Below, piece after piece: positions 1 to 32,024 of a DNA stretch of 32,459 nt (positions are counted from its first letter, which is position 1; each line of letters begins with the position of its first letter). The stretch is from positions 1 through 32,459 of the IMG/VR virus record IMGVR_UViG_3300044825_001594. One strand, given 5' to 3'. The notes beneath the pieces were generated by a model. It saw only the letters and a program-made list of their open reading frames with translations. It did no database searches and was not told where the DNA came from. The position numbers and the translations under genes were made by a program. This DNA is from a virus.

Positions 1-1496
1 CTCCATGGCCCAGACGTCGTAGAATACCACTCGAAGTTGTTAGCCGTGGTGTTGAATCGTATATCGCCGTTATCGCTCACGCCGCCTAAGTCTGTCCCCA
101 CAGGTATCCTAACCGCGTCCGTCGCGGAGATGTGGAGGGTGCGGGCAGGGGAGGTTGTGCCGATGCCTACGCGGCCTGTGGCTCCAACACCAGCGGGCAT
201 GAATGAAAAATTGGTATTGGTTAAAAATAAAGAATGCGTCGGTTCTTGAGAAAGAGCCATTACCTGTGTGCCATTGCCAATAGCTAAATCAGCCCCAGCG
301 TACCCGCTACTACCTACATCACCTATCTGAAATTTATTGTTTACCGTGGTTGTGTTCCATCCTATGTATCCGTTGGTGTCTTTTTCGTAAAGTTTACTAT
401 TCCCTGTTGCATTAGTGCCTATGTGTTTCAATAGGTAGTGCGTAGTTCCCCCTATCTGAAAATCCCGCGCAAAGACAGACGTATCCGCATTGGAGATATA
501 GCTGCTAAGCATCGTTGCCGTATCGGCAATGTTGATGTAATTAGTCAGCATGGCAGCCGTATCGGCAATGTTCACATAGTTAGTCAACATAGCCGCCGTA
601 TCCCCCGCCACTATCCCCGCCGTGGTGCTGGCCTTCCAGTACTTTAATGCTGAATCGTAGCGCAACACGCTGCCATCTACGCGCCCCGCTGTATCCACGT
701 CGTGTAAGTCGTGTAAGGATGAACCCGCGTCTATGCGCACCGCTAAGGTGCCGTTGCTCGCCGAATGCACCACAAAGGCAATGGGTAGTTTCAGATAGCC
801 GTTCCCCGGTTCTGTCTGCGTCAGCCCGCCTAACGTGTCCACGTCCGCATAGAGTACCGCGCCCTCGCTGTATGCCTGCGTGTTCACCTGTCTAATCTTG
901 CCCTGTGTCATTACATAGCCGTCCGCACCTGTGGCAATATCCTGCATGGCTATGCCTAAGACATACATAACGGGGATTGAACCGTTGGCAATCATGTGCT
1001 TGACTTTGATGCGCCCGGATGCGCCCAGCGTACCGCTTGCGCGTACTACTGTGCCTTTCGGTATCGTTACGGATGTATCGTTGCGGACGTACCATATCCC
1101 TGGGAGCAGGGGTATTTGCACGCTGTCCAGCCCGCCATATTGCAGATACCCTTTTTCAGCGCTGTATTTAAGTTCTTGTTCGGATGCGTCGCCCTCGTTG
1201 ATGTTGAAAGTAACGGAGTCGAAGGGCATGGATACGCCACCACCACCGCCTCCGGATACTAACCGCCATGCCTTGATACGGTAGGCGTATAGGTTTCCGC
1301 TGACGGTATCGAGCAGCATCCAGGCGTTGTTAAGCCCCGACGGGTCCAGGGTGGATGTGTCGGCGATCGCCCCCCGGTAAACAAGGCCATCGCCTGTGGT
1401 CTGCCAGCCGAGGCGCTGTTTTACACCGGATGCGGGGTATTGGGAGTAAGACAGGAAGGAAGCGAGCATAAGCCCGAAAAGCAGTACATGTTTCAT
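1..1496 (-). CDS. Tail fibre protein, C-terminal part beyond window
   Basis: I translated this frame from an ATG at 1496; it stays open to base 1, giving at least 498 residues with the 3' end missing. The start overlaps the stop of the preceding gene as ATGA. The first 19 residues (MKHVLLFGLMLASFLSYSQ) look like a signal peptide, which is odd for a virion protein but which I have seen in fibres of Bacteroidota phages. A glycine run follows at about residue 82, then a 13-residue repeat (genomic 489-605). Near the edge the protein has a GIGTTSPA-like motif and a stretch resembling IRFNTT..FEWY. These are typical of trimeric fibres, often with a C-terminal intramolecular chaperone, but that part would lie outside the window. 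Its likely role is host recognition at the tail tip. Family-level call is firm; receptor is unknown. Confidence 0.8.
   Translation of the reverse strand, partial: MKHVLLFGLMLASFLSYSQYPASGVKQRLGWQTTGDGLVYRGAIADTSTLDPSGLNNAWMLLDTVSGNLYAYRIKAWRLVSGGGGGGVSMPFDSVTFNINEGDASEQELKYSAEKGYLQYGGLDSVQIPLLPGIWYVRNDTSVTIPKGTVVRASGTLGASGRIKVKHMIANGSIPVMYVLGIAMQDIATGADGYVMTQGKIRQVNTQAYSEGAVLYADVDTLGGLTQTEPGNGYLKLPIAFVVHSASNGTLAVRIDAGSSLHDLHDVDTAGRVDGSVLRYDSALKYWKASTTAGIVAGDTAAMLTNYVNIADTAAMLTNYINIADTATMLSSYISNADTSVFARDFQIGGTTHYLLKHIGTNATGNSKLYEKDTNGYIGWNTTTVNNKFQIGDVGSSGYAGADLAIGNGTQVMALSQEPTHSLFLTNTNFSFMPAGVGATGRVGIGTTSPARTLHISATDAVRIPVGTDLGGVSDNGDIRFNTTANNFEWYSTTSGPW
489..605 (-). repeat. Three 39-bp (13-residue) tandem repeats in the fibre gene
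   Basis: Three consecutive in-frame units read GDTAAMLTNYVNI, ADTAAMLTNYINI and ADTATMLSSYISN, followed by a fourth partial unit starting ADTS. Each is 39 bp. The unit probably forms a repeating trimeric helical or coiled shaft segment of the fibre. Copy number change by recombination would alter fibre length. Confidence 0.85.
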
Positions 1497-16800: not shown

Positions 16801-18027
16801 TTACCTCCCCGCTACGAATGAACTTCCAGCGTTGAGGAAGGTGAAACAATATCTTAGCGCGTCCATCGCGTGGTTGTGCGCGTCTATCGGTATGCTGTGC
16901 TTCTTGTCGTTCCACGAGTATAGGCGCAGTTCGCGCTTGATGTCGTGGCTTTCCTGGCTGACTACTATTGTGAAGTCCTGCAGTGCGCGGATGCCATTCA
17001 GGATACTATCAGGACCCTTGTCGGCTTTCTGTGCGTTTACGCCGGCCTCTTGTAGTTCGGCAATCAGTCGCGGCTCGGATGTATCGCATATCACGGGCTT
17101 TCTACCCGTTCGCCGTGCAACATCGCCCCGTACGTTCGATGTGCTTAGGTTGGTGGCGTAGAGGTGCTGCCTGACATATACCCGTTTCAACTTCTTGTCA
17201 ATTGCCACCTCAACCAATGCGAGCGGGTCCGGGAAGAACCCGAAGTCCAGGCCATAGGCAGAGGGTAGGGATTCATCGAATGCGCCCTCTATCCAGTTCT
17301 GATACACCGCGCCCTCGCTGCGCTCAAGCCATTGGCCTAAAAAGCGGTGGGCGTACTTAGCGGGCTGCGTATCGCGTAGGTGTGTAATCTTATCCAGGTA
17401 GTCCTGCGAGAGGTGCGCTTTCGATACGTGCCAGGTAGTATGTATGTGCGTCAATTGCGGGTGGGTGCTGATCGGTACCTGGTGCCCGTCTATGTCGCGG
17501 TATTTCGTGTAGCCCTCGAACCAGCGGCGATATACCCAGTGGTCTGTGGTCTGTGGGTTCATCGCGATTAGAACGATGTTCGGGGCATCCTCCCGGCGTA
17601 TGCTTTCGTCTATCGTATCGAAGGCTGCCTCATCCACGAACTCCTCCGCTTCATCCACGATGAACACGTTTAGTTTAGGGATAGACTTTAGCCGTGCCGT
17701 CTGGTTCCCGCTGCTTGTCTTGATACCGGAAAACAGTATGTCCGTACCCGTTACCTTGTGCCGTATGTTGGTGCGCGTAATTTCCACGTCGCTATCCATA
17801 CCCAGCAGGCTTATTTTGTCCTGGAACTCCGGTATGATGGATATTTCCGCGGCTGTCATCGTATAGCGGGTGTATAGGATACGCCACCCAGGATGCCGGG
17901 AGAGTGCATCACACGCCCACAATGCCATGCTGAAAGACTTAGATGAAGCCCTCCCGCCTGTCAGTAGGATGTACCGCGTCTTGGGTAGCCAAAGCGGCTG
18001 ATATGCCTGGTTAATCTGTATCTGCAT
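16801..18027 (-). CDS. terL: Terminase large subunit
   Basis: This 408-residue packaging motor has all expected landmarks. Walker A is GGRASSKS at residues 24-31. Walker B is VFIVDEAEE at 121-129, with the catalytic Glu after Asp125. The C-terminal nuclease is of the RNase H type with Asp261 in YGLDFGFFPD, Asp315 in VICDTSEPR and Asp389 in DAHNHAMDALRY. It belongs to the Terminase_3/PBSX-like group. It pumps DNA through the portal using ATP and cuts concatemers. The start overlaps the small terminase by 17 bases. Confidence 0.95.
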   Translation of the reverse strand: MQIQINQAYQPLWLPKTRYILLTGGRASSKSFSMALWACDALSRHPGWRILYTRYTMTAAEISIIPEFQDKISLLGMDSDVEITRTNIRHKVTGTDILFSGIKTSSGNQTARLKSIPKLNVFIVDEAEEFVDEAAFDTIDESIRREDAPNIVLIAMNPQTTDHWVYRRWFEGYTKYRDIDGHQVPISTHPQLTHIHTTWHVSKAHLSQDYLDKITHLRDTQPAKYAHRFLGQWLERSEGAVYQNWIEGAFDESLPSAYGLDFGFFPDPLALVEVAIDKKLKRVYVRQHLYATNLSTSNVRGDVARRTGRKPVICDTSEPRLIAELQEAGVNAQKADKGPDSILNGIRALQDFTIVVSQESHDIKRELRLYSWNDKKHSIPIDAHNHAMDALRYCFTFLNAGSSFVAGR

Positions 18028-18331
18028 CCTTGATGAATACGATAGCGGCCGGGGCTTTAATCTCGTTGCCGCCTGTGGTGTGGTCTATCTGCTGCTTAGG
18101 GCGTCCGTAGCCGTATGCTAATAGCATATCAGCGGCCTTTAAGTTGCCGTCTATGGCCATCTGTCGTAGCCGCATGAGTACGGCCTCCAATGCGGTTTTC
18201 CCGTTCTTTTCGTCTGCGAGTAGTTCGGCCATTGCGCCTTTCAGGTCAGGCAGCTTGGGGCGTCCTGCGTTCTTGTTTACCCCGCCTGTTTTCAATTTAC
18301 CGCCATTACGGCCTGGTCTCATGTCTGACAT
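18011..18331 (-). CDS. terS: Terminase small subunit-like protein
   Basis: The 106-residue protein begins with the basic pattern RNGGKLKTGGVNKNAGRPKL, common to small terminases and DUF5681-type proteins. A helical domain (LEAVLMRLRQMAIDGNLKAA) and YGYGRPKQQ follow. It directly precedes and overlaps the large terminase. The expected role is recognition of the packaging site and loading of the large subunit. A second ATG three codons in is also possible as the start. Confidence 0.75.
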   Translation of the reverse strand: MSDMRPGRNGGKLKTGGVNKNAGRPKLPDLKGAMAELLADEKNGKTALEAVLMRLRQMAIDGNLKAADMLLAYGYGRPKQQIDHTTGGNEIKAPAAIVFIKDADTD

Positions 18332-18342
18332 ATTACGGGAAT

Positions 18343-18972
18343 TTAACGGGATTGGATTTCAATTATCCAAAAGTTCTTATCCTCTAACGCGAACGTGCGC
18401 CCGAACGTTTCCTCTACCGCCCTGGCAACACCTTCAAAGGCGGTGAAGTCGTCCCCGAACATTGTTCCGCCCGTTCTTAGTAGGGGCATGTATGCGGCAA
18501 TGTCGGCTTTCACATCGTCGTATTCGTGGCTCCCGTCTATGTATATGACGTCAGCCTGTACCTTTTCGCTACTTAGATACCGCGCTGCCATGAGCGAGGG
18601 CATGGGGATAGGCGTGATATAGCGCTCTACCCCTGCTGCCTGGACACAGCGCAGAAAATGGTAGTACACCCGTGGATAGCCGTGTTTCAGCATTAAATCG
18701 CGTTCCGGTGTGTCCTTATGCGTAGTCCAGAACTCCAGGGCACCCAACCAGGTATCTACGCAATAGATTCGCCCCATGCCGTTGGGTAGGTTGCGGGCCA
18801 TCTGAATAGCGCTTGCACCGTGCCAGGTTCCCACTTCGATAATCGTAGGCGCTACGTACTTAGATACGATGCGCTGAAATATCGGGTGTTCGCTATTCCA
18901 GCCCTGCGCCATCGGGAAAGCGTCATCGCTGTATGGTATGGGAAAGACGCCCTCTCCTATCTTGTTGCCCAT
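18343..18972 (-). CDS. Class I SAM-dependent methyltransferase
   Basis: The 209-residue protein has a Rossmann-type methyltransferase core. The SAM loop is IIEVGTWHGASAIQMARN (about 44-61), the acidic second strand RIYCVDTW (about 68-75), and the third block ADVIYIDGSHEYDDVKADI (about 139-157). This is the Methyltransf_24-like pattern often found with sugar or antibiotic tailoring genes. It lies at the end of the glycosyltransferase cassette, overlapping the GT2 gene by 16 bases, so O- or N-methylation of a sugar is the likely role. The acceptor is unknown. Confidence 0.75.
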   Translation of the reverse strand: MGNKIGEGVFPIPYSDDAFPMAQGWNSEHPIFQRIVSKYVAPTIIEVGTWHGASAIQMARNLPNGMGRIYCVDTWLGALEFWTTHKDTPERDLMLKHGYPRVYYHFLRCVQAAGVERYITPIPMPSLMAARYLSSEKVQADVIYIDGSHEYDDVKADIAAYMPLLRTGGTMFGDDFTAFEGVARAVEETFGRTFALEDKNFWIIEIQSR

Positions 18973-19844
18973 CGTTCGGGGTTTAGGTTGTCTAATCGGC
19001 TGTTTTCGCGGGTGCGTTGTGGTAGGTTCGCGAACACCTGCTCCATGTTGCGGGGCGTGACGGTGTTCTTAGTCGGGTCATCGTGGTTTTGGTGTATCAC
19101 CATTGCGGCCTCGTCGTGTGGGGTAATCGTGGGGATAGTCAACGCAGTACGGCGATGCAACAAGTCCACGTCTACCACGCCCCACACAGGCGATTCGTTT
19201 AGACCTCCCAGGGCTTCCCAGGTGGCACGGCTCCCGCCTCCCCATATCCACGAGTGCCATACCACATGCTTGTCCATTGCAGCGTGCACATAGTCGGCTG
19301 CAGGGCCTTCTATGGCCGTTCCTGGCACATCGTAGAAGTCCGGTATGTTGCGCACGTTCATTAAGTCATAGCCCATTTTAAGGCCATGCCAGTTGTCTTG
19401 CATGTATTCTTGCTGCGCAGGGGTAAGGTAGTAGCCCTTGCAGGAAATCCATAGCGGCGTATTGTACACCGCGCACGTCTGACGGGCTTGCTCCAGGGTG
19501 CGTTTCCCTGGCATTACCTCCGGGTGCGTGGCGAACACGGTTTCACAATGCAGGCTATAGAGGGCGTAGCTGATACCTTCGTTCAAGAACTGGGCGCTGT
19601 CCCGCCATTGGCCGTCGGGCTTTTCAAGTCGGAAGTAGTGAATATCCATCACATCTGCCCAATCGCGCACTACCTGCTCGGTGTGATCGGTGCTGGCATC
19701 GTCAATAATGATGAGACAGGTATCCTCTTTCATGGTTCGGTGGTACCATACCAGGGAGTTCTTTAGCAGGTGTGCGCGGTTGTAGGTGCCCATCACGACG
19801 GCGCAGCGGTATTGGAGGTCGGTGTGTTTTTCGGTGTATAGCAT
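18957..19844 (-). CDS. GT2-family glycosyltransferase
   Basis: This 295-residue GT-A fold enzyme has the N-terminal MGTYNRAHLLKNSLVWY motif and the IIIDDASTDHTEQVV motif (about 45-59) that bind the nucleotide sugar. WGGGSRATWEALGGLNES, with a VDVDLLHR motif after it, corresponds to the acceptor and metal region of GT2 enzymes. It starts one base after the GT75-like stop. It probably transfers a sugar to a phage or host glycan in series with the two upstream enzymes. Confidence 0.85.
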   Translation of the reverse strand: MLYTEKHTDLQYRCAVVMGTYNRAHLLKNSLVWYHRTMKEDTCLIIIDDASTDHTEQVVRDWADVMDIHYFRLEKPDGQWRDSAQFLNEGISYALYSLHCETVFATHPEVMPGKRTLEQARQTCAVYNTPLWISCKGYYLTPAQQEYMQDNWHGLKMGYDLMNVRNIPDFYDVPGTAIEGPAADYVHAAMDKHVVWHSWIWGGGSRATWEALGGLNESPVWGVVDVDLLHRRTALTIPTITPHDEAAMVIHQNHDDPTKNTVTPRNMEQVFANLPQRTRENSRLDNLNPERWATR

Positions 19845-19845
19845 G

Positions 19846-20781
19846 TTACTTGGTTAATGCCTGCCATTGGCGCAAGCGATTGGAATAAAGCGTTACATAG
19901 GGATGCAGCGAAGAATATGGCGGTGGCACATGCCCAAGTATTTCGGGCATATACTTATACATCGTCTCGTTGAGTTCCATCCCAGGGGCTTCTTTTCGCA
20001 GGTTCGCCCATACGTTAGACGCCCGGCGGTGTTCCACGACGGAGTAACCGGATACGGCGGCACCGTTCAGCACATTGTCAATTGCGTATTTCATTACCAA
20101 GCCCGCCCAGATGTCGGCGAAGCGGTCGAACACTTCCAGCCCGTCCTGGAGCAGCTTCCTACCCATAGGTGCTTGGTAGGCGTAGGGTAGCAGTTCTTTC
20201 CGAAAGGCGAAGTTCATGGCGCACACCGGGAAAAAGACATGGCGGGGGATGTGAAAATGGTTGAACTCCACATCTCGCAATTCGGGGTATTGGAGTTGTT
20301 GTATCGCATCCAGGTCGGGAACATTCGACCATAGCCCGTGGGATAGCAGTACGGGGTATTTGGGAAGATAGTACGGAACGCCCCGCATATTCATTTTCGT
20401 TTTCGTCGTGTTCTGCCAGTCCAGCACTACTTCCTGCCCGAGTGCATCAAGATGGGTTTGTATCGTATCGCCATTAGGCAACACATCATCATCCAGGGAG
20501 AGGTACACGTCGGGTTTCGAGTGCCGATGCGCGACAAGGAAGCCCAGGTTGCGCACGGCGTCCGTGAAATTATAGATACATGTGGGTATTTCGATTTCGA
20601 TATTACCCCATAGGAGTGCGCCTTCATAGTTGAAACGCTGTACTATGGGTATTTCCCCATCCAGGACGCGGTACACATCGCAGTTGTGCCGCTGGAACAA
20701 TTGCACCCAGGCGGGCATGAATTCGTCATCGAATAATTCCGGCCTGATTGTCGGGATAATTACCGCAATTTTCTTTTTCAT
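19846..20781 (-). CDS. Reversibly glycosylated polypeptide / UDP-arabinopyranose mutase-like (GT75)
   Basis: The start at 20781 overlaps the GT-B stop as ATGA, giving 311 residues. The sequence carries the signature blocks of the RGP/UAM family: IIPTIRP at 8-14, LSLDDDVLP at 94-102 (metal/nucleotide-sugar site), MRGVPYYLP at 132-140, SHGLWSNVPDLDA at 147-159, VCAMNFAF at 186-193, FADIWAGLV at 221-229 and HRRASNVWANLRKE at 251-264. Plant members interconvert UDP-arabinopyranose and UDP-arabinofuranose and glycosylate themselves. The plant arginine after DDD-containing regions cannot be aligned by eye with certainty. A substrate other than UDP-arabinose is possible. I consider the family call firm and the substrate open. 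Confidence 0.85.
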   Translation of the reverse strand: MKKKIAVIIPTIRPELFDDEFMPAWVQLFQRHNCDVYRVLDGEIPIVQRFNYEGALLWGNIEIEIPTCIYNFTDAVRNLGFLVAHRHSKPDVYLSLDDDVLPNGDTIQTHLDALGQEVVLDWQNTTKTKMNMRGVPYYLPKYPVLLSHGLWSNVPDLDAIQQLQYPELRDVEFNHFHIPRHVFFPVCAMNFAFRKELLPYAYQAPMGRKLLQDGLEVFDRFADIWAGLVMKYAIDNVLNGAAVSGYSVVEHRRASNVWANLRKEAPGMELNETMYKYMPEILGHVPPPYSSLHPYVTLYSNRLRQWQALTK

Positions 20782-21767
20782 AGGCTTTCCAGTATTGATT
20801 TTCGTAATTGGTTCCATGTGTCCAGGTTCCGGTGTTTTTCCATCCATGCCCGGCCTGTTTTCACAGTTTCTTGCTTATCAATCTTCCCGCTTCGTATCTC
20901 GCTCAATAGTACTTGCAAGTGCATGGGGTTCTTATAGCGCACTACGCCTGGGTGTTCCCATTCTGCCAGCCCTTCCGGCGCAAGGACGGCGCCTCCGGCG
21001 GTGAGGACCTCCATTGCAAATATGTTGGATTTCGCTTGGTTGAAGTCATCCAGGGTTAGGGGATACAAGCCCCAGTCTATACCACTATTCCGCATACCCT
21101 CAAATAGTTGGTACATCGTCTGCCAGGGGATGAAGTTGGCTTTCCCTTTGAACCAAGGCAGTAGGAACTTTTCGATACCGATGAACATGAGCGAAGTGGA
21201 CGGATCGTCTCCGAGCATACGCCACACCTTTTCAATTGTCCATAAGTCGTCCAAGTGCGTGGTGCTACCCCTCCAGAACACGCGCAATGGGTTGTGCTGT
21301 GGCACGATTTCGCCGTATGGGGTGCTTTGCATGTTCGGGCAATTAGGTACGACGTATATTGGCTTGTCGAAATATTGCGCGTAGAAGTCCGCCAGGAAGG
21401 GGGTGCTGACAATTAGCGCGTCGCCCATACTAAGGGCTGCATCCATCGTCTGTTTTACCTGTGGGTTGTTGAAGTGCTTCGATGCGGGGTTGGCATCGGT
21501 TAGCCCGTGTAGCAAGTCGTCAATATCCAGGAGTATCTTTTTCCCCATGCGCTTCGCCTCTGCTATGAAATTCAGCGTTTCATCGCCGTTGGGGCGTTGC
21601 ACCACCATCACATCTGACGTGTACATGTGGTGCCATTTGCAGTTTTGGGGGTATTGGATTTCCAGGCTGATACTTTTATCTACTTCCGCCAGGCGCCCGA
21701 ACGGGCCAATGGTGCGGTAATAGTCCGTTGCCGCGCTGGTTGGGTTGGCTAATATGAGTATCTTCAT
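20778..21767 (-). CDS. GT-B fold glycosyltransferase
   Basis: This 329-residue protein looks like a GT1/GT4-type glycosyltransferase. The N-terminal Rossmann strand is MKILILANPTSAATDYYRT. ILLDIDDLLHGLTDAN follows at about 78-93, VPNCPN at about 139-144, VFWRGSTTHLDDLW at about 163-176, and the donor-binding region KSNIFAMEVLTAGGAVLAPE at about 246-265. The N-terminal DYYR pattern is shared with phage and prophage members. It is the first gene of the sugar cassette and overlaps the 80-residue upstream gene by 4 bases and the GT75-like gene by 4 bases. Confidence 0.8.
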   Translation of the reverse strand: MKILILANPTSAATDYYRTIGPFGRLAEVDKSISLEIQYPQNCKWHHMYTSDVMVVQRPNGDETLNFIAEAKRMGKKILLDIDDLLHGLTDANPASKHFNNPQVKQTMDAALSMGDALIVSTPFLADFYAQYFDKPIYVVPNCPNMQSTPYGEIVPQHNPLRVFWRGSTTHLDDLWTIEKVWRMLGDDPSTSLMFIGIEKFLLPWFKGKANFIPWQTMYQLFEGMRNSGIDWGLYPLTLDDFNQAKSNIFAMEVLTAGGAVLAPEGLAEWEHPGVVRYKNPMHLQVLLSEIRSGKIDKQETVKTGRAWMEKHRNLDTWNQLRKSILESL

Positions 21768-22006
21768 TCGATTATCGTTGTTGCTTCCAATGGGTAATGC
21801 TTCCTAAGTTCTGTTATCTCGCTATCAGGGTCCTGGCACACCTTTTCAATCACTACCAGGACGTCGCCTGTCTTAGTATGCCGTGCGCTCCGTATGCCCC
21901 ACCCCGCTACCTTCCAGGGGGCTTCTACCCCGAACGCTTTCACCATGTGAGCAGTGCGCTCCATGCCTGGGAGGGGTAGGCGTATGGTTGCGGTGGCTAT
22001 CTTCAT
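21764..22006 (-). CDS. Small protein, unknown
   Basis: Using the ATG at 22006, which overlaps the upstream stop by 4 bases, gives 80 residues (MKIATATIRLPLPGMERTAH...). A longer reading from 22132 would run through the previous gene and is unlikely. The fold looks like a small alpha/beta domain. I do not recognise it. Translational coupling to the MazG-like gene upstream and the glycosyltransferase downstream is the only clue. Confidence 0.6.
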   Translation of the reverse strand: MKIATATIRLPLPGMERTAHMVKAFGVEAPWKVAGWGIRSARHTKTGDVLVVIEKVCQDPDSEITELRKHYPLEATTIIE

Positions 22007-22287
22007 ATCCCTTCTTGTCCTTCGATTATCGCAGCCGCCATCCTCAGCAGCGTGCGGGCAAATTCGTACTCGTTCGCTTTTAAGGCGTACTGTGCGCCGT
22101 CGAGCAATTCTTCCAGTAGGTGCTGCAGCCATTCTTCCCGTGTCAAATCATCGCGGTCTATGCTGTGCCCGTACTTTTTCTTACCCGTGCTTTGGCGGGC
22201 TTCTACCATAAATAGGAGTTTTCCGCGAACGGGTAGCTCTAACTGCATGGTGCGGGTTATGTCGTTTATGGTTTCCAGTACTGTCAT
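22003..22287 (-). CDS. MazG-like helical protein
   Basis: The 94-residue all-helical protein contains STGKKKYGHSIDRDDLTREE, then LLEELLDGAQYALKANEYEF. The acidic EEW..H-EELLD spacing is reminiscent of the all-alpha NTP pyrophosphatases (MazG/dUTPase superfamily), which use EExxE and ExxD to bind magnesium. The first motif is not complete, so activity is uncertain. Encoded two genes after dCTP deaminase, it fits nucleotide pool management. ATGA overlaps occur on both sides. Confidence 0.5.
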   Translation of the reverse strand: MTVLETINDITRTMQLELPVRGKLLFMVEARQSTGKKKYGHSIDRDDLTREEWLQHLLEELLDGAQYALKANEYEFARTLLRMAAAIIEGQEGI

Positions 22288-22492: not shown

Positions 22493-22522
22493 AAAAACCC
22501 TCCCAGCGGATAGCCGGGAGGG
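22493..22522 (-). terminator. Intrinsic terminator after dCTP deaminase
   Basis: On the minus strand CCCTCCC at 22522-22516 pairs with GGGAGGG at 22504-22498. The stem can extend by GC pairs and is followed by five T. It lies 31 bases after the dCTP deaminase stop. Confidence 0.8.
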
Positions 22523-22552: not shown

Positions 22553-23122
22553 CTATGAAGTGATACCTGTAAGTTTTCGATATAGCCGCGACGGTTGCGG
22601 CTTTGGGTCGTGGGCATCGGTGTATGTGGATGCTTTGCGCTGCATGTACCCAACCTCAGGCATAGATTTCGGGACGTGGTAGCTTATTTGGCCAATGGGC
22701 ATCCCGGCGTAGACGCGCACCCGTTGCACCACGAAAATCTCCAATGTCCAGTACCCACGATAACCCAGGTCGCCAAAGCCTGCGGTTGCGTGAATGTTGA
22801 TACCCAACCGGCCAACACCGCTTTTGCCCTCCAATATGGGCACGTAACGGTGCGTCTCCGTGTATTCCATCGTAGAGCCAAGGTATATCTCGCCAGGCTC
22901 CAACACTATCCCGTTTTCGGGGATTTCAAAATACCGGACGTTGCACGGCTTAGCCGCGTCAATTACCTCAAGATTGCCCTCCAATTCAGGTTCATAGATA
23001 CACATGAAATTAGAAAGGCGCACATCGATACTATTAGTACCAATTGCACCCGGTGCTATGGGCTTTACGACAATGTCGCCCTGGTTGAGGGCGTCAATAA
23101 GGTCTTGTTTTGTTAGAATCAT
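22553..23122 (-). CDS. dcd: dCTP deaminase
   Basis: The ATG at 23122 gives 189 residues, close to the usual size (about 193); the longer upstream reading would start inside the tRNA-like gene. The conserved core is EGKSGVGRLGINIHATAGFG at 98-117, followed by DLGYRGYWTLEIF at 118-130. Arg105 and catalytic Glu128 (in TLE) sit where the family requires them. The enzyme deaminates dCTP to dUTP for dTTP synthesis, acting as a trimer. The leader is AAAACCAAACA before ATG. The tRNA-like gene ends about 14 bases upstream, so both may share a transcript. Bifunctional dCTP deaminase-dUTPase is possible. Confidence 0.85.
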   Translation of the reverse strand: MILTKQDLIDALNQGDIVVKPIAPGAIGTNSIDVRLSNFMCIYEPELEGNLEVIDAAKPCNVRYFEIPENGIVLEPGEIYLGSTMEYTETHRYVPILEGKSGVGRLGINIHATAGFGDLGYRGYWTLEIFVVQRVRVYAGMPIGQISYHVPKSMPEVGYMQRKASTYTDAHDPKPQPSRLYRKLTGITS

Positions 23123-23136
23123 TGTTTGGTTTTTAG

Positions 23137-23211
23137 CCGCAGGGGTGGGAGTCGAACCCACTATCTCCAGCCTGGTAATGAGCTGGCGGAATGCCGTTTT
23201 CCCACCCCACG
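23137..23211 (-). tRNA. tRNA-like gene with 10-nt anticodon loop
   Basis: Read from 23211 to 23137, the sequence folds into a cloverleaf. The acceptor CGTGGGG pairs with CCCTGCG (two G-U pairs). The D stem GGAA/TTCC has a 7-base loop containing GG. The anticodon stem is CCAGC/GCTGG, the variable loop has 5 bases, and the T arm is GTGGG-TTCGACT-CCCAC. The anticodon loop TCATTACCAG has 10 bases instead of 7, or 8 if a T-G pair closes it. CAT (Met) or TAC (Val) could therefore be presented. No CCA is encoded. Everything outside the anticodon loop is standard. Confidence 0.7.
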
Positions 23212-28768: not shown

Positions 28769-29464
28769 TCAGAAAAGTTTTTGCTGGGCGACATGAGCCT
28801 CTACCCTTTTCATGGCAGCGGCGAAGTACTCCGGGTCAAGTTCGCAGCCTGTCAAATCGAAATTGTAATCGTGGCAGGCAATGGCGATGGATGCGCTGCC
28901 TAAGTGCGTGTCCAGGATGCGGTCGCCTGGTTTGGCGTAATTGTGGAGCAGCCACTTGTATAGGGCGACGGGCTTTTGGGTTGGGTGAAATTTTTTCTCC
29001 CATAGCTTGTTGTTGCCTTGTGCTATCCTGCCTTCTTTAACGCTTTTACCCTGAGCAATACACCACATGTATTCAATTTGCCTAACAGCGGTATTAAATG
29101 AAGTCCATGCAAGTTCGCAGTCCGCTTGGTCTGAATTGCCGTTAACCTTATCCCACACAATCCAACAGCTTTTTGCTGGCAACAAGTCCGCAAAATAATT
29201 CCCGCCCCATATTATTTGATTTTTCGATACCCTTCTTAACTCTGAAAAATAATCTAAATCAGGTCGTTTATCATCCCAATACCCAACCTTTTTTGGCTTG
29301 GTTATTATCAAGCGTCCGTTTCTTGGGTCTCTCGCTGGGGTTTTTCTTACAAAAGCCCTATCTGCTTTTATCCCATACGGCGGGTCAACAATAGCTAACT
29401 GAAAATACCCATCAGGATACCGCGCCATAAGCTGCATACAATCCTCGTTCGTTAGTGTGAGCAT
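28769..29464 (-). CDS. DNA methyltransferase (beta-class, N6A/N4C)
   Basis: This 231-residue enzyme has motif IV DPPYGI at 27-32, then the HPTQKPVALYKW block at 160-171, and the SAM-binding motif I (ILDTHLGSASIAIACHDYNF) at 183-202, followed by GCELDPEYF. The order IV...I is that of beta-class amino-methyltransferases. Small phage enzymes of this type protect DNA from host restriction or mark it for packaging. It starts 3 bases after the stop of the previous gene. The motif DTHLGSAS instead of DPFxGSG is a known variant. The recognition sequence cannot be inferred. Confidence 0.85.
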   Translation of the reverse strand: MLTLTNEDCMQLMARYPDGYFQLAIVDPPYGIKADRAFVRKTPARDPRNGRLIITKPKKVGYWDDKRPDLDYFSELRRVSKNQIIWGGNYFADLLPAKSCWIVWDKVNGNSDQADCELAWTSFNTAVRQIEYMWCIAQGKSVKEGRIAQGNNKLWEKKFHPTQKPVALYKWLLHNYAKPGDRILDTHLGSASIAIACHDYNFDLTGCELDPEYFAAAMKRVEAHVAQQKLF

Positions 29465-30129: not shown

Positions 30130-30669
30130 CTAAACCTGAAATATATCTAATTGCCCTTGTTGTGATCGCCACACTTTTACAAGCCCTGGGAGTTCTTTCC
30201 ATTCAATGAACAAAAATTTATTATCGCTCTTCTTGTCTTTAAATTTATGTTTTTCGTTCTTGTAAACCTCATACAAGTCTATTGTTCGGATAGCCCCTAT
30301 TGATAGACAGTTGTTCGTATCAGTTTTGTCAAAGTACGCTTGTACCGTGAAAACGGGATAGAAATATGCTTTTTCAATCGCCTCAATACGTTTTTCAAGC
30401 TCCGTCTTTGCGCCTGTATGCCTTTCAAGTCGTATCGTAAAACTGTCGTATGCGTGTCCCCATTGTGCCCTCCATGCTATACCCTGAAGCCCGTGCGCGT
30501 CTTTTCGCAGTAGGTCTATACCGCTGTGTTTGTCAAGCCAGCCTAATACTTCGTTGTCTGTGGTCTCTATGCTTACTATTGTGCCCGATATGATTTTGGG
30601 CATTACGGTATGTTTGATAGCCTCAAAAGCCTGTGCGCTCTTTTTCAAGTCTTTTACCCAATCTTGCAT
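30130..30669 (-). CDS. Unknown protein overlapping the ParB-methyltransferase
   Basis: The 179-residue protein starts 16 bases inside the methyltransferase gene. It has WLDKHSGIDLLRKDAHGLQG followed by IAWRAQWGHAYDSFTIR, then FYPVFTVQAYFDK and a C-terminal KFLFIEWKELP. The GID...GIAWRAQ arrangement is reminiscent of PD-(D/E)XK-type nucleases (GID...IxxKxQ), but the catalytic Glu-X-Lys is not clear: Q replaces it. I recall uncharacterised homologues in Bacteroidota. It could be the nuclease of a restriction-modification pair, or a degenerate or accessory form. Confidence 0.55.
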   Translation of the reverse strand: MQDWVKDLKKSAQAFEAIKHTVMPKIISGTIVSIETTDNEVLGWLDKHSGIDLLRKDAHGLQGIAWRAQWGHAYDSFTIRLERHTGAKTELEKRIEAIEKAYFYPVFTVQAYFDKTDTNNCLSIGAIRTIDLYEVYKNEKHKFKDKKSDNKFLFIEWKELPGLVKVWRSQQGQLDIFQV

Positions 30670-32024
30670 CCGCGTTGTTTTGCTATTTCAATATTGTCCT
30701 GGTCAAGTTCGCAGCCTATCCCTACCCTACCCAGGCGAGAGGCTGCCAGTAAGAATGTGCCCGTACACGCGAATATGTCCAGGACGGTATCCCCCGGCCT
30801 GGATGCGTGGCGTATGAGCCTATTTGCAAGTTCATCGGGCTTTTGCCAGGTATGGTATCGGTTGCCCTGCCTTCCATCGGGTGCGTTAATGTCCTGGACA
30901 GAAAACATTTCATTCGTTACCGACGTGTCAAGTTCGCGGCTGCTATCCCGGTACAAATGCCAAATAAGCTGATAGTTCAAGTTGTACCGCGTCCTGGGTG
31001 TTTGGCCTAACGTATTGCGGTATGTCCATACCAGGGGGGCATCCACTATGAAGCCCGTTTGTTTGAAGGCTGTCAGATAGGCCAGCATTTCATCAGGATA
31101 AGCCCCGGTGCAAATATATGCCCTGCCTTCGGGCTTTAATTTAGCCAACAACATGCCCAGCCAGGAGGATATGAACCCGTCGAAGTCCGCGTTTTGAAAT
31201 TCGGTAAGGTACGGGGGATCGGTCAAGATTAGGTCTATACTGCTATCCGCAATGTCATTCAGGTATTCGCGGCAATCCATCAGGTGGACAGTGGGCATCC
31301 TCTTTTGTTCTTCTTCTGCCTGTCTTAGTTCTGCGAGTTGCCTTTTCTCCAACACTATTTGAAGCCTGGCAATCTTTACAGATATGCCTTTCTGCATAGC
31401 CCGCTCAAGCGCCTCGCTTGCTATTGCAGTACTGCCTCCTTTTTTCGGGTCAAGCAGTTTAACAAGTTCGTCAAGGTCGGTACCACTATCCTCGAAGCGG
31501 GTGCCTTTTATCAGGTGGGCAATAGGCTGCAGGGCTTTGCCGCGCAATGTGTCGCGCCTAACGTTTCTTTCAGATACACCTTGTGCTTTGGCTGCATTCT
31601 CGGTATAGGTTTCGGGATTTCGTTCGTTCAAGTGGCCAACTTGGCCACTTGATTTCGCTTCATGGCTTTTTCTATCACCTCCATGTTTTACTTCTGGATG
31701 CAATGTTTCATAAATCTCCTTACGCCTATTCTGCCAGGTAGCCCGCTCCAGCATCGTCAATTCATTGCGGATTAAGTTCTCGTCTATCTCCGCAAGTTCG
31801 GCCTGTAGCCCGTCCAGTTCTACGATAATAGCCGGGATAGTATCCCAGCCCAATTCTTTGCAGGCAGTCAGGCGGTGAAAGCCTGCAATCAGTACCAGGT
31901 CAGCGGTAACGGTAATAGGCTGCATTAGCCCAATTTCGCGTATGCTGTCCTTTAGGCTGTCCAGGTTGCCAACCTGTCGTTTTCGGTCGCGCACTATTAC
32001 GCGGTCAATCTCTATTTGGTTCAT
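30654..32024 (-). CDS. ParB-like domain fused to DNA methyltransferase
   Basis: This 456-residue fusion has an N-terminal ParB/Spo0J-like domain (about 1-110: SIREIGLMQPITV, then LIAGFHRLTACKELGW) with the box that is usually GERR changed to GFHR. A helix-turn-helix-like stretch (ENAAKAQGVSERNVRRDTLR, about 142-161) follows. The C-terminal amino-methyltransferase (about 240-456) has motif IV DPPY at 269-272 and motif I DIFACTGTFLLAA at 416-428, then GCELD. ParB-methyltransferase fusions are common in phages and may methylate specific sites for protection or gene control. A terminator-like hairpin ends 4 bases before its ATG. Confidence 0.85.
   Translation of the reverse strand: MNQIEIDRVIVRDRKRQVGNLDSLKDSIREIGLMQPITVTADLVLIAGFHRLTACKELGWDTIPAIIVELDGLQAELAEIDENLIRNELTMLERATWQNRRKEIYETLHPEVKHGGDRKSHEAKSSGQVGHLNERNPETYTENAAKAQGVSERNVRRDTLRGKALQPIAHLIKGTRFEDSGTDLDELVKLLDPKKGGSTAIASEALERAMQKGISVKIARLQIVLEKRQLAELRQAEEEQKRMPTVHLMDCREYLNDIADSSIDLILTDPPYLTEFQNADFDGFISSWLGMLLAKLKPEGRAYICTGAYPDEMLAYLTAFKQTGFIVDAPLVWTYRNTLGQTPRTRYNLNYQLIWHLYRDSSRELDTSVTNEMFSVQDINAPDGRQGNRYHTWQKPDELANRLIRHASRPGDTVLDIFACTGTFLLAASRLGRVGIGCELDQDNIEIAKQRGCKIG

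Follow-up and report, generated by a model that had tools for sequence, protein, structure and literature searches.

A phage gene cassette predicted to make a methylated furanose glycan lies in an exchangeable slot before the terminase genes

The window analysed here is the whole IMG/VR virus record IMGVR_UViG_3300044825_001594 (32,459 bp), a phage whose putative host group is Bacteroidota-type bacteria. Directly before its terminase genes, four genes on the minus strand (21767-18343) encode a GT-B glycosyltransferase (GT), a GT75 enzyme, a GT2 glycosyltransferase and an S-adenosylmethionine (SAM) methyltransferase. Taken together, these genes probably constitute a pathway for a furanose-containing, O-methylated glycan. 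We tentatively place this glycan on virion proteins. A preliminary description of this DNA had recognized the four families and treated the genes as a single insert before the terminase. The families are confirmed by profile matches (PF03214, PF00535, PF13578 and phrog_7162). The single insert is not upheld: the GT-B gene is a fixed neighbour of the terminase in related phages, and only the other three genes occupy a slot in which different gene systems replace one another.

The first gene (20778..21767) encodes a GT4-type GT-B enzyme of 329 residues, which matches phrog_7162 (E 4.9e-22) and has no Pfam match. It is followed by a predicted GT75, or reversibly glycosylated polypeptide (RGP)-type nucleoside diphosphate (NDP)-pyranose mutase, of 311 residues (19846..20781; PF03214, E 6.6e-26) and by a GT2 glycosyltransferase of 295 residues (18957..19844; PF00535, E 1.7e-7). 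The last gene (18343..18972) encodes a SAM methyltransferase of 209 residues that resembles sugar O-methyltransferases (Methyltransf_24, PF13578, E 1.7e-19). The longest open reading frame (ORF) of GT75 starts at 20847, and the homologues favour the ATG at 20781. With this start, the genes overlap or abut and run into the terminase genes as previously described: GT-B and GT75 share a 4-base ATGA overlap, GT75 and GT2 are separated by 1 base, GT2 and the methyltransferase overlap by 16 bases, and an 11-base gap precedes the small terminase gene terS. Such spacing alone is weak evidence, because in 54% of the 39 curated junctions in this genome the genes likewise overlap or lie no more than 1 base apart.

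The GT75 protein scores 91.7 bits against PF03214, where the curated cut-off is 23.8, and its AlphaFold2 (AF2) model has a predicted local distance difference test score (pLDDT) of 90.2. The fold of the model matches MtdL (VIA Z 27.2, 3.4 Å over 283 residues) and rice UAM2 (OsUAM2, Z 25.8), with the next fold at 14.4. The mapping of residues onto MtdL was verified at three points, namely DDD 109-111, Asp195 and Arg159 in 'PRGFPF' of MtdL. Asp74, Arg77, Asp97-99, Arg133, Asp156, Arg220, Asp223, His251 and Arg253 are all retained in the phage enzyme. The DDD motif (Asp97-99), Arg133, Asp156, Arg220, Asp223 and the metal-binding His251 are invariant across 18 phage GT75 sequences, and Arg133, the nucleophile and by numbering the equivalent of MtdL Arg159, is invariant in 21 sequences including archaeal ones. 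In MtdL, mutase activity depends on Arg159, Asp195, Arg257 and Asp260, and Arg159 is essential by mutation (PMC9937993). We predict that the GT75 of the window can work as an NDP-pyranose mutase; since it keeps all catalytic residues of such mutases, the likely product of the cassette is a furanose-containing, O-methylated short glycan. It has the fold, DDD motif, metal-binding His, nucleophile Arg and general-base Asp in common with MtdL and the plant UAM/RGP proteins. It differs from them in being phage-borne, in lying next to a GT2 gene, in having Ala/Met at the positions of MtdL Ser228/Gln229, and in that its mutase activity is a prediction. The Arg of the plant 'SLREG' motif was also considered as the nucleophile, which would have meant its loss in the phage enzyme. 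This assignment was dropped after numbering against MtdL and AtRGP2 pointed to the Arg of 'RG(Y/F)P', a residue that the phage enzyme retains.

Relatives of GT75 are found in 19 viral contigs of our scan. Other phage GT75 genes are often clustered with GT, sugar epimerase-like, RmlC-like and methyltransferase ORFs, not all of which were profile-tested, and some of these clusters adjoin capsid-like or terminase ORFs, as read from the sequence. Among named phages GT75 is present in one jumbo phage only. In the 595-kb phage LR756511 (L020), a GT75 gene lies beside sulfotransferase-like and methyltransferase-like ORFs. A scan of genome contigs with the GT75 alignment for a cellular source gave archaeal matches only. 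Phage GT75 was mentioned earlier as an auxiliary metabolic gene (PMC12016548), and no paper addressing what it does in phages came up in our literature search.

The AF2 model of the GT-B enzyme (pLDDT 86.9) shows a GT4-like GT-B fold over the whole length, with VIA Z 24.0 to BshA over 301-305 residues and Z 21 to T4 AGT. Because both proteins are matched, the fold cannot separate protein, lipid and DNA acceptors. GT2 always adjoins GT75 in cassette phages, is soluble, and gave no match in a search among named phages. By hydropathy no membrane span is found in any of the four proteins, GT-B, GT75, GT2 and the methyltransferase ("GT-B, GT2, METHYLTRANSFERASE"). The methyltransferase has weak similarity to PF04989 (CmcI/rhamnosyl O-methyltransferase), and no DPPY or PC motif is found in its sequence. 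The PHROG label 'DNA methyltransferase' for this gene was rejected, since Pfam assigns it to Methyltransf_24 and its sequence has no DNA methylase motifs. A short glycan capped by methylation had been proposed in the preliminary description; the methyl cap is plausible, and the chemistry of the glycan is what we infer.

All four genes are found in the same order in a near-twin phage (3300045999_007115), with identities of 95, 72, 94 and 99% for GT-B, GT75, GT2 and methyltransferase. The ratios of nonsynonymous to synonymous substitution (dN/dS) against the twin are 0.06, 0.22, 0.07 and 0.03, respectively, which points to purifying selection on every gene of the cassette. The GT75 genes of the two phages (window 19846-20781 and L017:8067-9062) are mosaic: codons 201-275 are identical at the protein level, and codons 26-150 and the C-terminus are far more diverged. 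This pattern suggests recombination in the nucleotide-binding half.

The order GT-B, GT75, GT2, methyltransferase is also observed in another phage, G001 (3300034073_001895), at 28, 48, 40 and 60% identity and again directly before the terminase genes. The terminase of G001 is of HK97 type (PF03354/PF20441) and its portal belongs to PF04860; both are unrelated to those of the window. Outside the cassette the two phages have only a dCTP deaminase, a small signal-peptide protein, a weak ClpP match and a tail-fibre-like protein in common, the last being the only virion protein strongly common to both. Contig L024 has GT75 and GT2, then a PF13578 enzyme other than that of the cassette, and after these an HK97-type TerL. 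Since the same gene order stands before the terminase in the twin and in a phage with unrelated terminase and portal, the cassette is a real module and not a chance cluster, in line with the earlier suggestion of sugar genes that are linked and move as one. The arrangements in G001 and L024 further show that the enzymes travel together and that the methyltransferase is exchangeable. A nucleotide search with the cassette region against 50,697 phage records gave no match. In L069 (5783-8999), a different overlapping GT2-GT-methyltransferase-GTB set is found directly before terL, an independent analogue of the cassette of the window.

A scan of viral contigs with a GT-B alignment revealed at least 371 stretches encoding relatives, of which the best 80 were fetched. 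The resulting set comprises 84 loci on 83 contigs (18 clusters at 95% identity) and over-represents close relatives of the query. A terminase gene is found at most 4.3 kb downstream on the same strand in 76 of the 76 loci with enough sequence, of Terminase_3 class in 69 and of HK97 class in 7. Because of this constant linkage the GT-B gene is a fixed anchor beside the terminase. In most relatives the interval between the two contains a ParB-like gene, and what follows it varies: Mom, TAGT, Tet_JBP with an FkbM methyltransferase, QueC-QueD-QueE-FolE, a C5 cytosine methylase, a PAPS reductase with a second ParB, or ABC/GNAT proteins. This exchange slot was traced in L068-L146. In the window it is filled by GT75-GT2-methyltransferase. 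Even in clusters linked at 98% or higher GT-B identity the loci differ in what the slot holds, with 8 configurations in one 19-locus cluster, so the slot is exchanged rapidly. The upstream flank of GT-B carries sugar-type genes in 23 of the 76 loci (a TOD1_MUCI70 GT, a DegT aminotransferase, a Methyltransf_24 protein and a 234-residue protein). The preliminary description had proposed to compare this locus among relatives, with scattered genes as evidence against a cassette. The comparison is divided: the cassette is whole in the twin and G001, whereas in the wider family GT-B occurs without the other three genes (only two of the 84 loci have a GT75 nearby) and GT75 is also present in sugar clusters elsewhere.

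We infer the substrates, the order of steps, the target and the timing as follows. GT75 would convert a host NDP-pyranose to an NDP-furanose via a sugar adduct on Arg133. The adjoining GT2 most likely transfers the furanose made by GT75, and the GT4-type GT-B enzyme would attach a further residue, which may be the first of the glycan. O-methylation of the glycan would fall to the Methyltransf_24 enzyme. The cassette genes are probably expressed together with the terminase genes. The preliminary description had listed virion proteins, DNA bases and host surface polymers as targets, and sequence does not determine which of them receives the glycan. Our leading reading, favoured by analogy with Corndog-type mycobacteriophages, is a protein of the virion, in the tail fibre, the tail or the capsid. 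Two papers report that Corndog-type glycosylation products modify the capsid and tail tube (PMC11600133, PMC11256854), and this precedent is also found in PMC4351075 for Corndog/Catdawg. In these cluster O mycobacteriophages, as in the window, four contiguous overlapping genes for three GTs and one O-methyltransferase (gp33-36 in Catdawg) lie among packaging and head genes, and the Catdawg O-methyltransferase also matches PF13578. However, the GTs belong to other families, GT75 is absent, and the set lies between portal and protease, while the cassette of the window precedes terS. The run common with packaging genes, the soluble enzymes and the grouping of sugar genes around GT-B and GT75 elsewhere also favour a virion target.

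Several points weigh against decoration of the virion. The GTs of the window have no significant similarity to the Corndog-type GTs (no BLASTP match below E 0.1; profile comparison not run). Cassette phages have almost no head proteins in common, so a target in the capsid would need to be a different one in each. The tail-fibre candidate is also found in G003 (42%), a phage without GT75, GT2 and methyltransferase. Some plant GT75 members have no mutase activity (PMC9937993), the cassette has no known donor sugar, and the phages of this group are all uncultured. In addition, a recognised DNA-modification gene is found in the slot of 30 of the 76 loci.

Modification of DNA is a serious rival, although we consider it unlikely. 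Here GT75-GT2-methyltransferase would put a furanose and then a methyl group on a phage base against host nucleases, as one of several exchangeable systems of the slot. The location argues for this: it is the slot that in relatives holds Mom, TAGT, Tet_JBP, QueC/QueD/QueE/FolE, C5 DNA methylase and PAPS-reductase/ParB systems, which swap even among phages linked at 98% or higher GT-B identity. Furthermore, pentoses are among the sugars carried by phage cytosine (PMC12838424, PMC13390438), and the GT-B model matches T4 AGT. Yet AGT is not its top structural match, and GT-B stays constant whatever the chemistry of the slot. In contrast to known hypermodification loci (T4 hydroxymethylcytosine glucosylation, TET/JBP-TAGT, Mom, 7-deazaguanine), no base hydroxylase or known DNA glycosyltransferase is found in the window, the twin and G001. 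Searches of these three records, which may be incomplete, gave no thymidylate-synthase-type hydroxymethylase (PF00303) or Tet_JBP (PF12851), with positive controls, and no TAGT (PF20691), with a positive control in G014. The methyltransferase is of sugar O-methyltransferase type without DNA methylase motifs. The stronger form of this proposal, in which the slot is dedicated to swapping genome-disguise systems and the three genes are an exchangeable hypermodification module for O-methylated furanose on DNA, is somewhat less probable again.

Less likely than either a virion or a DNA target, and improbable in our view, is that the enzymes alter a host surface polysaccharide (lipopolysaccharide or capsule) and thereby block superinfection or re-adsorption to debris. 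Surface glycans are commonly built by GT2 and GT-B enzymes, the GT2 has weak NCBIfam similarity to exopolysaccharide GTs, and a tail fibre common to two cassette phages would fit a common receptor. On the other hand, the GtrABC serotype-conversion genes are likewise phage-borne GTs, but GtrA is missing here (the flippase PF04138 is absent from four records, with a positive control), and none of the four proteins has a membrane span. Neither a polymerase nor a lipid-carrier enzyme is seen, and expression alongside the packaging genes would come late for exclusion. Lowest in probability is a mixed case in which GT-B would work alone, decorating a target of its own, and the pathway would consist of the other three genes only: GT75 is seldom near GT-B across the 84 loci, and GT-B is the least conserved gene in G001 (28% against 40-60%), but GT-B directly adjoins GT75 in both full-cassette lineages, and in L039/L040, too, GT75 is paired with a GT-B homologue.

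The cassette joins the known phage glycan-decoration gene sets as a new variation on them. Few phages have experimental proof of phage-encoded glycan pathways. As the present one is compact, has a mutase for the sugar ring and is preserved next to two packaging modules that are unrelated to each other, its enzymes could be tested one at a time. More surprising is the swap slot that lies between the constant glycosyltransferase gene and the terminase. There, Mom, TET/JBP, TAGT, 7-deazaguanine and methylase systems take one another's place in phages that are otherwise similar, which marks the slot as one genomic location in which to seek new anti-restriction chemistry.

The surrounding genes, all on the minus strand, form a tight run that begins upstream of GT-B. 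A 94-residue ORF near its start (22003..22287) matches phrog_28498 (E 3.3e-13), whose function is not known, and is joined by an ATGA overlap to an 80-residue ORF (21764..22006; 92-95% in the twin), which in turn has an ATGA overlap with GT-B. A strong intrinsic terminator at 22498..22522, a 25-nt stem-loop and the top match of the scan, separates this run from the upstream dCTP deaminase gene (22553..23121; PF22769, E 8.5e-37; 51% in G001), a conserved neighbour of the cassette. The stem-loop is identical in the near-twin, and a terminator-like site occupies the equivalent position in G001. Because this conserved terminator sets the run apart from the deaminase gene, the data fit a single transcription unit that runs from about 22,480 and takes in terS-terL. 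A scan for sigma-70-like promoters gave fewer matches than in shuffled sequence and was not used. Base composition gave no sign of recent insertion (GC content 0.52-0.56 against a gene mean of 0.53).

Downstream of the cassette, the terS candidate (18011..18331; DUF5681-like, E 2.8e-4, and position) overlaps by 17 bases with terL (16801..18027), which is of Terminase_3 class (PF04466, E 3.8e-27; PF17288). The best named relatives, at about 41%, infect Flavobacteriia (Riemerella, Nonlabens). The TerL ORFs of L009 (10001-12133) and L010 (3052-5184) have 710 residues and carry an intein-like insertion of roughly 300 residues near the C-terminal nuclease motif (CFVGDT...VHN). The tail-fibre-like protein (3..1496, minus strand), truncated at the contig end, matches annotated tail fibres and is 66% identical to that of G001 over 194 residues; a signal-peptide-like stretch is found at its N-terminus. 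Just before the dCTP deaminase gene lies a tRNA-like gene (23136-23211) with a four-base anticodon call (catt), where the twin has an ordinary tRNA-Met. The gene at 30654-32024 encodes a fusion of a ParB domain and an N6/N4 DNA methylase, and a second N6/N4 methylase is encoded at 28769-29464.

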